This document shows, piece by piece, positions 13,074 to 19,964 of a stretch of DNA of 34,473 bases. The first letter of the stretch is position 1. Each line of letters starts with the position of its first letter. Below the pieces are notes generated by a model. That model did no database searches and was not told the origin of the DNA. It saw only the letters and a program-made list of their open reading frames with translations. The position numbers and the translations under genes are program-made. This DNA is from an uncultured Sphingomonadales bacterium (GTDB lineage Bacteria > Pseudomonadota > Alphaproteobacteria > Sphingomonadales > CAKZYD01), in the NCBI GenBank assembly GCA_937884085.1, contig CAKZYD010000209.1, positions 1 to 34,473 on the forward strand, read 5' to 3'.

Positions 13074-14617
13074 CGCTCGCAGTGGACAGCTTGCGCATTG
13101 CCTATGCTGGCAGCGCTGTTGTGGATGGGGTTTCGTTCAGCCTTCCGCCTAGCAAATGCCTTGGCGTCGTCGGAGAATCAGGCTCTGGTAAAAGCCAGAT
13201 GGGCCTGGCCTTGATGGGCCTTCTCCCTGCCACCGCTGAGACCGATGGCACAGTCCACATCCATGGCGAGGCTTTGCCTGACGTTGCCCGGCGCGACCAG
13301 TTGGCCATGGTGTTTCAAGACCCACAATCGGCCTTCTGCCCCCATATGCGTATTGCGGACCAAGTGTTTGAAGCCATGGGCGGGCGCGATGCTACTGCGG
13401 CGGCCGCCTTCTTGAAGCAAGCGGGCCTTTCGAACCCGGAGCAAGTGCTGGCCGCTTATCCCCACGCCCTGTCCGGCGGCATGCGCCAGCGGGCCATGCT
13501 GGCCATGGCCCTGGCGCGCACGCCTTCGGTCATTGTTGCCGACGAGCCAACGACCGCCCTCGATGCAGAGGTGCAGCTGGCGCTTTTAAAAGAGTTCGCC
13601 GCCGTCAAAGCGAGCGGTGTGTCGTTGATCCTGATCAGTCATGACATGGGGGTCATTGCTGGCCTGGCCGATGATATCCTGGTGATGCAAAATGGACGCG
13701 CTGTTGAGCAAGGCGCTGCCGAGGCCATTCTGCGCCAGCCGCAACACCCTTACACGCGTGATTTGATTGCAGCGGCGACGCTGAAACAGGCCGTCCCAGC
13801 ACAAACACAAGCAGGGCCAGTGTTGATCGAAGGCCGCGGCCTCACCAAGCGCTTTCCTATGCCGAAAGCCCATCCTTTCGCGCGGACCCACGTGAAGCAG
13901 GCGCTGGTCGATGCGGCCATTGAAGTCCGGGCTGGCGAAACGTTGGCCATTGTTGGCGAATCAGGGTCAGGCAAGTCAACGCTGGCGAGCCTGATGCTTG
14001 GCCTTGCGCCGCCCAGCGAAGGTGAGGTTCTGTGGAAAGGCCAGCATTTCACAGCCCTTCCGCCACAACATCAAAGGCGGCTGCGCCGCCATGTGCAGCC
14101 GGTCTTCCAAGACCCCTTTGCCAGCTTTGACCCGCAGCGCACCCTCGGGCGATCTATTCAAGACATGATCGACCTGCACGGCACAAACCACAGTGTTGAG
14201 GCGCTCCTTGCGTCTGTGAATCTGTCGCCAGATATTGCAGAGCGGTACCCGCACCAAGCCTCTGGCGGACAAAACCAGCGCGCAGCCTTGGCCAGAGCCT
14301 TAGCGGCGGACCCGGAGGTCCTCGTCTGTGATGAAGCACTCAGCGCGCTCGATAAGACCACGCAAGCACAAATCCTGGCGCTCTTACAACGCATCAAAGA
14401 AGAGCGCGGCCTTGCCATGTTGTTCATCAGCCACGACCTGGATGTGGTGGCTGCCATTGCAGACCGCATCGCCGTCCTAAAGGACGGTCATATGGTTGAG
14501 ACGGGGCCTGTCCAGCAGATCATGCAAAGCCCGCAATCGCCTTATACGCAGCGCCTATTGGCAGCGCAGACTGTGCCAGATGCAGCCGTAATGCGCGCGA
14601 AGATTACAGCGTCTTGA
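13070..14617 (+). CDS. Fused oligopeptide ABC transporter ATPase (OppD-OppF type)
   Basis: Two Walker A motifs (GESGSGKSQMGLA, GESGSGKSTLASL) and two signature motifs (ALSGGMRQRAMLA, QASGGQNQRAALA). Start overlaps the oppC stop. Confidence 0.9.
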   Translation: MTLAVDSLRIAYAGSAVVDGVSFSLPPSKCLGVVGESGSGKSQMGLALMGLLPATAETDGTVHIHGEALPDVARRDQLAMVFQDPQSAFCPHMRIADQVFEAMGGRDATAAAAFLKQAGLSNPEQVLAAYPHALSGGMRQRAMLAMALARTPSVIVADEPTTALDAEVQLALLKEFAAVKASGVSLILISHDMGVIAGLADDILVMQNGRAVEQGAAEAILRQPQHPYTRDLIAAATLKQAVPAQTQAGPVLIEGRGLTKRFPMPKAHPFARTHVKQALVDAAIEVRAGETLAIVGESGSGKSTLASLMLGLAPPSEGEVLWKGQHFTALPPQHQRRLRRHVQPVFQDPFASFDPQRTLGRSIQDMIDLHGTNHSVEALLASVNLSPDIAERYPHQASGGQNQRAALARALAADPEVLVCDEALSALDKTTQAQILALLQRIKEERGLAMLFISHDLDVVAAIADRIAVLKDGHMVETGPVQQIMQSPQSPYTQRLLAAQTVPDAAVMRAKITAS

Positions 14618-15587
14618 GCCAATCGCGCCGGGCGTTGAAGGCTGCCAGCGGGAAGTCGGTGAAGACGCCGTTCACGCCAAGATCGAAGACTGCTTTATAT
14701 TCATCCCCCGGCGTTTTGAACGGCGCAGGCACATCATCGGACCGGAATGTCCAGGGATAGATCTTCAGCCCAGCGTCTTTTGCCGCTTTCACAAGCCCCG
14801 AATCTTTCAGGTCTGGCGTGACAAGCGCGGATTTGTTTGGGCCAATCGCATCGGCATATTTGGCAATCTCCGCCATATCCGGCCAATCGTCCGGGCCGCG
14901 CAGATAGAGAAGCTGCACCTTATTGAGGTTCTTCACCTTCGGCATGCTTTTCAGGAAGTCAGGCTCGAAGCACTGCATGAAAGACGTCTGCAATTTGCCT
15001 GCATTTAAGCGGTCAAAGAAGGGCTGCAACGCTGCCAAAACATCAAAGCCCAGCGAGGCAGCCACCGAGGGCTGCTTAATCTCTGGAAACAGGCGCCAAT
15101 AGCGAAACTCGGCCTCTTCCAAGACCTCAGCAAAGGTCGGAATGGTATAAGTATCATCGAACGCGCTTTTACGGCCTTGGACAGGCGTTCGCGCGCGCAG
15201 CTGGCCAATCTCTTCCAGCGTGAAGTCTTCGGCAAACCAATCTGCCTCTTTCCGGCCAGGCTTGGTCGTGCGCCGGTCCGCGAATTGCGGCAGGTCGGCG
15301 ACATTGGTTGTCGTCGACAAATACCGGTCATGGCGGCAGATCAAATGGCCGTCTTTGGTGAACACGAGGTCTGGCTCAATGGCATCGGCATAGAGCGAAT
15401 GTCCCAAGCGGTAGGCCCCGAGCGTATGTTCCGGGCGCTTCCCAGAGGCACCGCGATGGGCGATGATCATGGGCTCTTGCGGCGGCTTCAGCTTCATGGC
15501 CTCCTCCGCTGTTGCCTTTGACCCTATGCTGCTGGCCAGCAGACTACCGCCTAGCCCAGCAACAGCCGTGCGCCGTGTCCACTTCAT
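14604..15587 (-). CDS. glpQ: Glycerophosphodiester phosphodiesterase, Tat-type signal peptide
   Basis: MKWTRRTAVAGLGGSLLASS twin-arginine-like leader; MIIAHRGASGKRPEHTLGAYRLGHSLYADAIEPDLVFTKDGHLICRHD catalytic motif. Confidence 0.9.
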   Translation of the reverse strand: MKWTRRTAVAGLGGSLLASSIGSKATAEEAMKLKPPQEPMIIAHRGASGKRPEHTLGAYRLGHSLYADAIEPDLVFTKDGHLICRHDRYLSTTTNVADLPQFADRRTTKPGRKEADWFAEDFTLEEIGQLRARTPVQGRKSAFDDTYTIPTFAEVLEEAEFRYWRLFPEIKQPSVAASLGFDVLAALQPFFDRLNAGKLQTSFMQCFEPDFLKSMPKVKNLNKVQLLYLRGPDDWPDMAEIAKYADAIGPNKSALVTPDLKDSGLVKAAKDAGLKIYPWTFRSDDVPAPFKTPGDEYKAVFDLGVNGVFTDFPLAAFNARRDWLKTL

Positions 15588-17428
15588 ACCACAGGCTCCA
15601 AGGTCGTTTCATCTGGGGCGCCGCCGGGAACAACGCGAAAGACCGGGCCGTCCTTGGCGTCAAAGTCGCGGGACTTGACCGTGGAGACATAGTGGTAGCG
15701 CGCAATAGCCTCCTCCCGCGTCAACCGGATGGTGACATAGCCGCGGTCCTTGGCGTTCATGTATTTCACATCCGGTGAGGCGTCCTTTAATCCCGCTTCA
15801 ACGGTCTCCGGCGCGATAGGCAAATAGCCTTCGAACCCAGGGGATGAAACCGACGGTGTTGCCACTTCCCAGCCAACAGGCCCGCGCTTATCCGTTAGCT
15901 GGGAGACCCAGCTATTGTGCGTGTCGCCGGCTAAGACGATGAGATTTTTAGCAAATTGTCGGGCCTGATCAAACAGGCGTTGCCGCGCTGCCGGATAGCC
16001 GTCCCACGCGTCCATATTGAGGGGCAGACCAAAGGGCACCAGCTGCGCAACAGCGCGCAGACTTTCGCTCAGCGCGTTATCTTCGTCACTGGCATAGGTC
16101 CCAACGTCTTTTGGGATGAACACCTTGGCCATTAACACTTGCTGGGCCAAAATTTGCCATGGCTGTCCGCGTTTCTTGGAGCCTTCGAGCTGTGGGCCAA
16201 GCCAGGCTTCTTGTTCCTCGCCCAGCAACGTCCGGGCCGGCTCCTCCAGCTTTTCCTTAAAGCCGCCGACGTCGGGCAAATAAGTCAGATAAGGTGGTGC
16301 GTCTTTGGGGTCAAAAGTGCGAATAACATCCAGGTCGAGCAATGGCTTTGGCGGCTTTTCGCGCATATCAAAAGGCACCGCCAGTCGCTCGACTTTTGTG
16401 GCGGCCATAGTCGCTTGTGCATCCGGCGTGCGCAGCGGCTTTGGATTGTCCTGGTCGCTCACATCCACAGCGATGGTGCGCGGGTCAAAGTCGGTTGCGT
16501 AGTTCAGCTGCTTGTCGCGGCCCCATAGCCTTGTGTCCAACACCACGAGGCGGGCCAAATCGCCTAGATCGATGCTGCGCCAGGGCCGCCGCATATCCGC
16601 GCGGGTTGGCATCCACTCATCATAGGCCTTTAAGGCCGCATCCCGGCGCTCTTCAAACAGTCCTTCGGTGCCGGGTTGATGGTTTTCTGCGCCCGCAGAC
16701 CATGTATTATTGCTGATTTCATGGTCATCCCAAATTGCCACAAAGGGGTGGGCTTGATGGGCTGCTTGTAAGTCTGGATCTGACCGGTAGAGCGCATAGC
16801 GCTTGCGATAGTCTTGCAGCGTCAGGATTTCCGTTTCAGGGTCAGCGATGCGCCCCTTGGCTTCAACGGATGGGTCCGAATAGGTCCCCTTAGCATATTC
16901 ATAAATATAGTCGCCCAGATGCAGCACGATATCGATATCGGCATTGGCGGCGATTTGGCGATATACATGGAAGAAACCATAGGGATAGTTGGAGCATGAG
17001 CAGCTCGCAATGGTCATGCTCTCCACATCGCCCACTGGCAAGGTCATCGTGTGGCCAACGGGGGAGACTTGATCCAGCGCTTTGAAGCGGTAGACATAGC
17101 GTTTGCCCGGTTTGAGGCCGGACACATCGATTTTGACGGTATAATCACGGGCCGCGCTTGCCGTCCCCTTGCCTTCGGCCACAAGCGCGTCAAACGTGTC
17201 TGTTTCCGAGACTTCCCACGTGACTGGAATTGGCGCGTCAGCGGCGTCTACAGACACTCGCGTCCACAAGATCACGCGGTCTGAGAGTGGATCCCCGCTG
17301 GCAACACCGTGCTGGAAGATGGGAGCGGCTTCTAAAACTTCTTCCTGCGCACCGGCCGCCGCTGCGGCCGCGCCAAGCCCCATGGCTTGAAGCATGGCAC
17401 GGCGGCCAATTGTGAAGCGTGATGTCAT
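15584..17428 (-). CDS. phoD: Alkaline phosphatase D family phosphodiesterase/phosphatase (PhoD), Tat-type signal peptide
   Basis: MTSRFTIGRRAMLQAMGLGAAAAAAGAQEE; FQHGVASGDPLSDRVILWTRV; HLGDYIYEYAKGTYSDP; AIWDDHEISNNTWSAGAENH; VLAGDTHNSWV. Confidence 0.9.
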   Translation of the reverse strand: MTSRFTIGRRAMLQAMGLGAAAAAAGAQEEVLEAAPIFQHGVASGDPLSDRVILWTRVSVDAADAPIPVTWEVSETDTFDALVAEGKGTASAARDYTVKIDVSGLKPGKRYVYRFKALDQVSPVGHTMTLPVGDVESMTIASCSCSNYPYGFFHVYRQIAANADIDIVLHLGDYIYEYAKGTYSDPSVEAKGRIADPETEILTLQDYRKRYALYRSDPDLQAAHQAHPFVAIWDDHEISNNTWSAGAENHQPGTEGLFEERRDAALKAYDEWMPTRADMRRPWRSIDLGDLARLVVLDTRLWGRDKQLNYATDFDPRTIAVDVSDQDNPKPLRTPDAQATMAATKVERLAVPFDMREKPPKPLLDLDVIRTFDPKDAPPYLTYLPDVGGFKEKLEEPARTLLGEEQEAWLGPQLEGSKKRGQPWQILAQQVLMAKVFIPKDVGTYASDEDNALSESLRAVAQLVPFGLPLNMDAWDGYPAARQRLFDQARQFAKNLIVLAGDTHNSWVSQLTDKRGPVGWEVATPSVSSPGFEGYLPIAPETVEAGLKDASPDVKYMNAKDRGYVTIRLTREEAIARYHYVSTVKSRDFDAKDGPVFRVVPGGAPDETTLEPVV

Positions 17429-17441
17429 GGACTGAAGGTCC

Positions 17442-19861
17442 TTAAAAGCGTCCGGTCAGCTCAATGCCATATATGCGCGGTGCGCCAGGAATGAATGTTG
17501 GCCGACCGAACAGACCACCGGTATTACCGCCGTCAATCAAATACTCTTTGTCGAACATGTTGTTCACAAAAGCTTCAACCTGCCATCCGTCGTCGGTATC
17601 CTTAAGGCCCAAACGTGCATTGACCAGCGAATAGCTGTCTTCCTCAACGCCGGCGACATTCGGCTGTTCAAAGAATTTTTGCCCCTCAAACGTCCAAGTG
17701 AGCGAGCCAATAACCGCTACGTCATCGGTCAGGTCTTGCTCATAGAGCGCGCCAAGGGCTGCGGCCCAGCGTGGCTGCAACCGGAAGCGCTGCCCGGCCA
17801 AATTGCCATTTTGCGGATCATCATTGATTTCCGCGTCGATATAGGCTGCATTTCCAAAGAGCTGGAATTCCTCAGTGACCTGGGCTGAAAAATCCGTTTC
17901 AACACCCCAGTTGGTCGCCCCACTGGCGCTAGATGGGATGAACATGCCGACATTATCCGGATCAGGAATTGTAACCTGGAAGTTCTCATAGTCTTGGTAG
18001 AATATGCCGACGGTTGCAAACAGCCGATTGTCAAAGAAGTTACCTTTGATGCCACCTTCATAGTTCCAGATGATTTCGGCGGGAATGAAGGTTGCATCGG
18101 CAAATGGCGGTACGGTGACCGTATTGCCATTAATCTCGCGCATGTTTGCAGTCATGACGTCGATAACGTCCGAACGTCGCCCGCGTCCGGCCGTTGCATA
18201 AAAGCTGATGTCATCTGTCAAGCGATAGAGGACATTGGCGCGCAGCAACCAATCGGAATAATCTTGGGATACATCCAAAACTTCGCCATTCGTGTTGACT
18301 TCGCCCAGGGATAAAAAGCTGAGGGCCCCAGCAAGATCAGCTGCGCCCGGCACACCAGAATCAAGAAGGATGGGCGCAAGCTGTGAGTCCGTGATTTCTG
18401 CAAATGCGCCGCTTGTTCGGCTTTCATTCACATAACGCATACCAAGGCTGACTTCGAGCCGGTCGGTTACATTGACCGTCGCATCACCATAGAGGCTCCA
18501 GATGTCAAAGCTTCCGGTGTTGCCGGTGACTTGGCTATACGGGATTGCGCTCAGAAACCCGCCGGTGAGCAGAGATGTTGTGTTCAGCGCAGGTACGGAC
18601 CCATCAGGAGCAACACAGCTCCCCAAGGGGCTGCCAAACAAGGCATCTGTAAAGCATGTCAAAAACACCCCCTCCTCGGTGGCAAAGGGAATGCGCTGTG
18701 TGCCGTCTTCGTGAAAATAGCTGCCGCCGAAAAAGGCGGCGAGGCCTTCGCCTTCGTAATTCAGCCGGACTTCTTGGCTCCATTGATCACCGACTGAATC
18801 CTCGGTGAATTCCAAGTAAGGCGCGGCGCTGCCGTCCGCATCGAACACTTCAACACTGTCAAATTCACGGTAGTTGGTGATCGTTGTCAGTTTCCATTGC
18901 TCATTGAAGTCATAAGCAATGGTCAGGTTGATATCGAAGACCTCGCGGTCGAGGCCAAGCTCGGTGCCGCCCAAAATCTCTTCTGATTGTGGGCTGCCGG
19001 ACAGCGTTGCGCCATTAAAGATGTTGGTATCTCCATCCAGGCCTGGGAATGTCCCGGAAACAAAGGCCGTGCCTGGCGGTTTTTGTTGATCAAAGCTTCC
19101 GATAAGGTCGACGGTAAGATCTTCATTGGGGGTGAAGCGCAGGCTGGCGCGGAAAGCGAGCACGTCTTGGCCGTTCAAGGCGTCGCCGAACTCACTGGGA
19201 TCAAGGCTGCCTGGTCCAGGGAAATCGTTGGCGATAAAGCCGTCGCGCTGTTTGACCGAATAGGCAAAGCGGCCAGCAATGATGTCATTGCCCACATTGA
19301 TAAAGCCTTGGCTTTCTATGAGATCGAGATTGCCATAGGAGAAGGACGCTTCGCCAGAGATGCCAGGTTCTGGCTTGTTGGTGATCACGGAGATGGCGCC
19401 AATGGCAGCGGCGGTGCCGAACAAGGTTGATTGTGGCCCCTTCACAACCTCGACGCGCTCGATGTCAAACAGGTCGAAATAAGATCCGCGCGAGCGGCTC
19501 ACATCCACACCATTATAGTAGATAGAGACCCGTGGTGCGATTTGCGCTGAGCCTGAGTCGGAGGTGATGCCCCGGATGACGAAGCCTGGATTGTTTGGGC
19601 TTGCTCATGAACCGTACGGCCAGGAATGAAGGGCGAGATTTCCTCAAATTCCGTCGCGTTGAGGCGGGTCAACAGATCGCCGGTTAACGCTGACACCGTA
19701 ACAGGCACATCTTTGAGGGATTGTTCGCGCTTTTGCGCGGTGATGAAGATCTCTTCAAGCGCGTTCACTTCGCCTTGGGCAGATGCAATGGCGGGAAGAG
19801 ATGTGCTGGCGAGTACAGTGCTCGCGATAAAAAGGGACCGATTCAAGGACATCTGGGGCAT
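17442..19861 (-). pseudogene. TonB-dependent receptor interrupted by an apparent -1 frameshift near 19600-19602
   Basis: ORF 19499-19861 carries the signal peptide and plug start (ALEEIFITAQKREQSLKDVPVTVSALTGDLL...FIPGRTVHEQ). ORF 17442-19508, open upstream without a stop, carries PGFVIRGITSDSGSAQIAPRVSIYYNGVDVSRSRGSYFDLFDIERVEVVKGPQSTLFG and the barrel to ...YGIELTGRF. Could be a real mutation or a sequence error. Confidence 0.85.
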
Positions 19862-19935
19862 TGGGCGGGCTCTCCTGCTTCATCATTTTTTGTGTGCATA
19901 GCATATGCGTTTGCGCGGGGTATGCGATGCGGGTG

Positions 19936-19964
19936 ATGACGAGAAGATGACAAGGGCATGAAAA
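19936..19964 (-). promoter_or_regulatory. Candidate PHO box (PhoB site): three heptamers phased at 11 bp
   Basis: Minus strand reads TTTTCATGCCC-TTGTCATCTTC-TCGTCAT; plus-strand ATGA motifs start at 19936, 19947 and 19958. Lies about 75-100 bp upstream of the TonB receptor start. Confidence 0.5.

Follow-up and report, generated by a model that had tools for sequence, protein, structure and literature searches.

A one-base frame break in a TonB-dependent receptor gene of a Sphingomonadales draft genome, probably a consensus error

TonB-dependent receptors (plug domain PF07715, beta-barrel domain PF00593) are represented by full-length orthologues of the gene described here in Kordiimonas, Eilatimonas and Sphingomonadaceae. 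The end of the plug and the barrel are both present in one long ORF of our locus, but in the assembly a frame break cuts through the plug. Reading-frame transitions have been surveyed with GeneTack in search of those that are evolutionarily conserved (PMC3711429); ours also lies within one conserved gene, but it is found in none of the relatives. Frameshifts and premature stops can also be brought in by sequencing error, as described for long reads (PMC12007338). Our draft is similar in that single-base lesions interrupt conserved, otherwise whole genes all over the assembly, with the difference that they are mostly stops with few indels, which resembles more the substitution errors of short reads.

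The window (the whole stretch of DNA analysed, 34,473 nucleotides, contig C209 of draft G000) contains the receptor frame on the minus strand from 19861 to 17442, changing by one base at ~19601. The features of the region are the following:

19936-19964, minus strand: Pho-box-like array upstream of the receptor start, TTTTCAT-GCCC-TTGTCAT-CTTC-TCGTCAT
19499-19861, minus strand: N-terminal ORF of the receptor, with the signal peptide and the first part of the plug (tblastn, translation)
19598-19606, minus strand: one-base frame break, GAG CAA / GCC in the N-terminal frame and AGC CCA in the downstream frame
17442-19601, minus strand: downstream frame with the remaining plug and the beta-barrel, open to its natural stop (translation, Pfam, tblastn)
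15584-17428, minus strand: PhoD-like phosphatase/phosphodiesterase gene, starting 13 nt after the receptor stop (Pfam, NCBIfam)
14604-15587, minus strand: glycerophosphodiester phosphodiesterase (GDPD) gene, with a 4-nt overlap with the PhoD gene

An AGGAG-like stretch is located 8 to 9 nt before the ATG at 19861, from which the N-terminal frame reads ...FIPGRTVHEQ/AQTIQAS... Its homology to other receptors is restricted to the first 87 codons (to ~19601), after which it runs out of frame until the stop at 19499. From 19601 the downstream frame encodes SPNNPGFVIRGITSDSGSAQIAPRVSIYYNGVDVSRSRG, and it stays open from 19604 as far as 17442. When both pieces were compared by tblastn, residue 88 of the N-terminal piece and residue 1 of the C-terminal one fell on the same codon of the relatives, in a single frame. 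Since the two pieces abut at one codon, the break is far beyond chance, and it is present in the letters as the original prediction had claimed; a reference-free coding-HMM scan placed it at 19592. We compared 30 distinct orthologues (33-57% identical), the nearest of them from the same order (Eilatimonas, Kordiimonas, Sphingomonadaceae). In all 30 the reading frame continues unbroken through the site, where the motif is PG[L/F/V]..QEQ followed by S.NNPGFVIRGITSDS. A two-ORF arrangement shared by relatives had been named beforehand as evidence against a lesion, and it was found in 0/30, so the lesion is private to this draft.

The site letters, read directly, are CTT at plus-strand positions 19600-19602, and the orthologues mostly have CAAAGC or CAGAGC (GAG-CAA-AGC, GAG-CAG-AGC and similar). 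The loss of one A out of three, as originally proposed, is compatible with these letters and plausible, but it is not the only possible one-base loss, as the G of a CAG would do equally well. In any case, a change from A3 to A2 hardly counts as a homopolymer change.

Outside the break the gene looks like a normal receptor. The barrel matches PF00593 with an E value of 1.2e-40 over residues 155-650 of the 688-aa downstream ORF. The plug is whole in the orthologues; in the assembly it is not continuous with the barrel, and the downstream ORF carries only its last third (profile positions 75-106), above the Pfam cut-off like the barrel. In a genome-wide plug search the match at this broken receptor spans profile positions 40-106, with a TGA inside. 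The signal peptide and the TonB-interacting N-terminus lie in the other frame (19861-19601). The other 806 codons look constrained, with 6 departures at 137 near-invariant columns of the orthologue alignment, which indicates that selection has acted on the gene up to the present or the very recent past, and agrees with the claim that the frame is intact apart from the break. Two odd residues were found no more than 6 codons upstream of it: PGL has become PGR, the last residue being L, F or V in all other orthologues, and VQEQ has become VHEQ, with Q in 29/30 orthologues. Their clustering near the break is weak evidence for an error.

None of the curated NCBIfam equivalogs scored above its cut-off for the receptor, and therefore the substrate cannot be assigned by family. 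Receptor, PhoD and GDPD genes form an apparent operon (14604-19861, minus strand), and in about ten relatives a PhoD homologue is also found near the receptor, mostly just downstream. The array in front of the receptor consists of three 7-mers at 11-nt spacing and gives two overlapping matches to the Pho box (CTGTCAT-N4-CTGTCAT) at 19936-19964, each with 3 mismatches. Matches with at most 3 mismatches were present in 13 of 30 upstream regions (the window included), with 0.17 expected in shuffles and 1 found on the other strand. Both the PhoD and GDPD genes downstream and the conserved array upstream suggest that this is probably a phosphate-starvation receptor; when phosphate is scarce, its likely role would be to import phosphate esters or the products made from them. 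Among the titles and abstracts retrieved by searches of the phosphate literature, none closely matched this receptor-PhoD-GDPD/Pho-box arrangement.

The draft is incomplete. It has 433 contigs and 90.4% completeness, and the RpoB C-terminal domain, present in all 14 control genomes, had no match in it, all as expected of a metagenome bin. We surveyed 990 kb of this draft (about a quarter) together with 1.2 Mb of the isolate G058, taking the coding-filtered ORFs of the draft, G058 and other relatives, aligning them to each and applying a sense-strand filter against antisense ORFs. This homology survey was preferred to the coding-HMM, which under-called nonsense because paths that stop and then restart are cheaper. 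Homologues covered 397 kb of the draft, and here we found 14 single in-frame stops on the sense strand of genes that are otherwise whole, with TAA, TAG and TGA all represented; leaving aside the contigs picked for an odd-looking receptor, the number is 12. The isolate, with the same pipeline and filter, had zero in 410 kb covered (p about 2e-4). The 12 events correspond to ~9e-5 stops per codon, i.e. about one stop, spurious or real, per 11,000 codons, and, on the assumption that a stop arises from 4.5% of random substitutions, to roughly 7e-4 substitutions per base. Frameshifts were much rarer. Against the 12 stops the survey had only the break in the window and at most one other, weak case (~12 to 1), and clear frameshifts in non-transposon genes were two only, again counting the one in the window. 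For natural unselected mutation we assumed about two frameshifts per nonsense mutation, in line with spontaneous mutation spectra. Under that ratio at least 12 nonsense events out of 14 would have a probability of about 8e-5, a figure softened by the less sensitive detection of frameshifts.

Besides receptors, the genes hit by stops include an Mrp-like ATPase (read from sequence), a P450-like gene, an AMP-forming ligase-like gene, an amidohydrolase and a beta-lactamase-like gene. The typA/bipA gene, its domains confirmed, has two of the 14 in-frame stops, TAA and TAG (L106:9802 and 10147, contig C153); each of them adjoins one more odd residue. In metH (L130:6845, contig C34) a TAG replaces the invariant Glu of GERTNV in the second half; this is a fifteenth stop, found outside the survey. 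The metH region was also considered as a frameshift, a reading rejected as there are naturally two genes here, with the nonsense TAG in the second. An alternative genetic code was rejected too, as TAA, TAG and TGA all occur in frame where the relatives have varied residues. A TGA in an enolase-superfamily-like gene (L179:7326, minus strand, contig C403) coincides with a Cys of the homologues (LCADES); selenocysteine was considered for it, but at the remaining TGA sites the corresponding residue is not Cys. Another TGA lies within a long cadherin-repeat-like protein (L107:3784, contig C184) with coding signal on both sides. On contig C25 two transposase-like copies (L122, near 2761 and 8002) change frame between two aligned parts. 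Insertion sequence transposase genes often use frameshifting, and these frame changes are possibly programmed; such matches in two frames were left out of the lesion count.

The plug-domain search matched 62 places in the draft. Eight of them were first judged to be cut by contig ends from their positions and visible lengths (the one on C245 from coordinates alone), but the one on C33 proved to be internally broken, leaving 54 or 55 assessable receptors. Of ~54, five are broken, the one in the window and the following:

Contig C286 (L067, near 9250): frame change
Contigs C420, C184 and C33: in-frame stops, respectively TAG, TAA and TGA (the three positions being L068:7971, L060:9891 and L070:1503-1505)

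In six isolate relatives no stop and long open frames were found among the ~150 plug places listed (p about 0.001 versus the draft). At the genome-wide background about 4 nonsense events would be expected in 54 receptors, close to the 5 broken ones observed, so receptors are not singled out.

How the two frames came about can be explained in several ways. Slipped-strand mispairing could turn the receptor on and off by a change that, as here, involves one base, and TonB receptors of some pathogens do vary in phase. However, the tract would be A2 versus A3, no simple or tandem repeat was found in 19400-19900, and the orthologues, several of which have the same CAAAGC, are all switched on. The phase-variable slip, one of the three options left by the original prediction, is thus extremely improbable, lacking a repeat tract at the site and being seen in no relative. 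Programmed -1 frameshifting, or reinitiation, might join or use both ORFs: a -1 shift does reach the downstream frame, and the GTG at 19508 could start a 688-aa product. Yet such a product would have neither signal peptide nor most of the plug, an in-frame X-XXY-YYZ heptamer is missing from the letters GAG CAA GCC CAA ACA, shuffled sequences fold locally just as well (z = -0.09, without any unusual hairpin), and none of the 30 orthologues has the two-frame arrangement. We consider this explanation very improbable.

The second of the original options, a genuine recent inactivation, is more serious. The sampled cells might truly lack the base. The receptor would then be a pseudogene of recent origin, or a loss-of-function allele that is still segregating, and the lineage might be one that is losing many genes. 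Receptors are often redundant, as the 62 plug domains illustrate, and most of the lesions are in genes that the cell could do without (receptors, P450, amidohydrolase, beta-lactamase-like), while the five tRNA-synthetase loci inspected were all intact; real decay would give the same picture, and this counts against an error, as does the rarity of one-base indels among short-read errors. On the other hand, such an excess of stops over frameshifts is unlike natural decay, and the two stops in typA, the one in an invariant motif of metH and the normal constraint in the rest of the receptor also speak against inactivation. A mutator lineage was considered and dropped: MutS and MutY are intact in the draft and therefore nothing suggests a mutator. 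We regard recent inactivation of the receptor as possible but unlikely. That the lesions as a whole are real, the population being in a burst of single-base inactivation, mostly by nonsense, that includes typA, metH and a phosphate-linked receptor, seems quite doubtful.

We prefer the remaining option, a sequencing or assembly error in the consensus, with a probability of roughly 0.7, because the whole draft bears many single-base lesions. The predominance of nonsense over frameshifts is more in keeping with sequencing errors of the substitution type than with natural decay, and the typA and metH lesions, together with the absence of a mutator signature, point in the same direction; we infer that the other lesions of the draft are also consensus errors rather than real mutations. 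The gene would then be an ordinary full-length TonB-dependent receptor heading a probable phosphate-starvation operon (receptor, PhoD, GDPD), the break at 19601 would come from base calling or assembly in an error-rich draft consensus, and the gene of the living cell would probably be intact.

In practical terms, this draft over-calls broken genes, and relatives and reads need to be consulted before any "pseudogene" taken from it is accepted. A real break would mean that a phosphate-scavenging receptor has been lost. Of more lasting interest is the conserved pairing of receptor and PhoD genes downstream of a Pho box, which is a candidate outer-membrane uptake route for phosphate esters.
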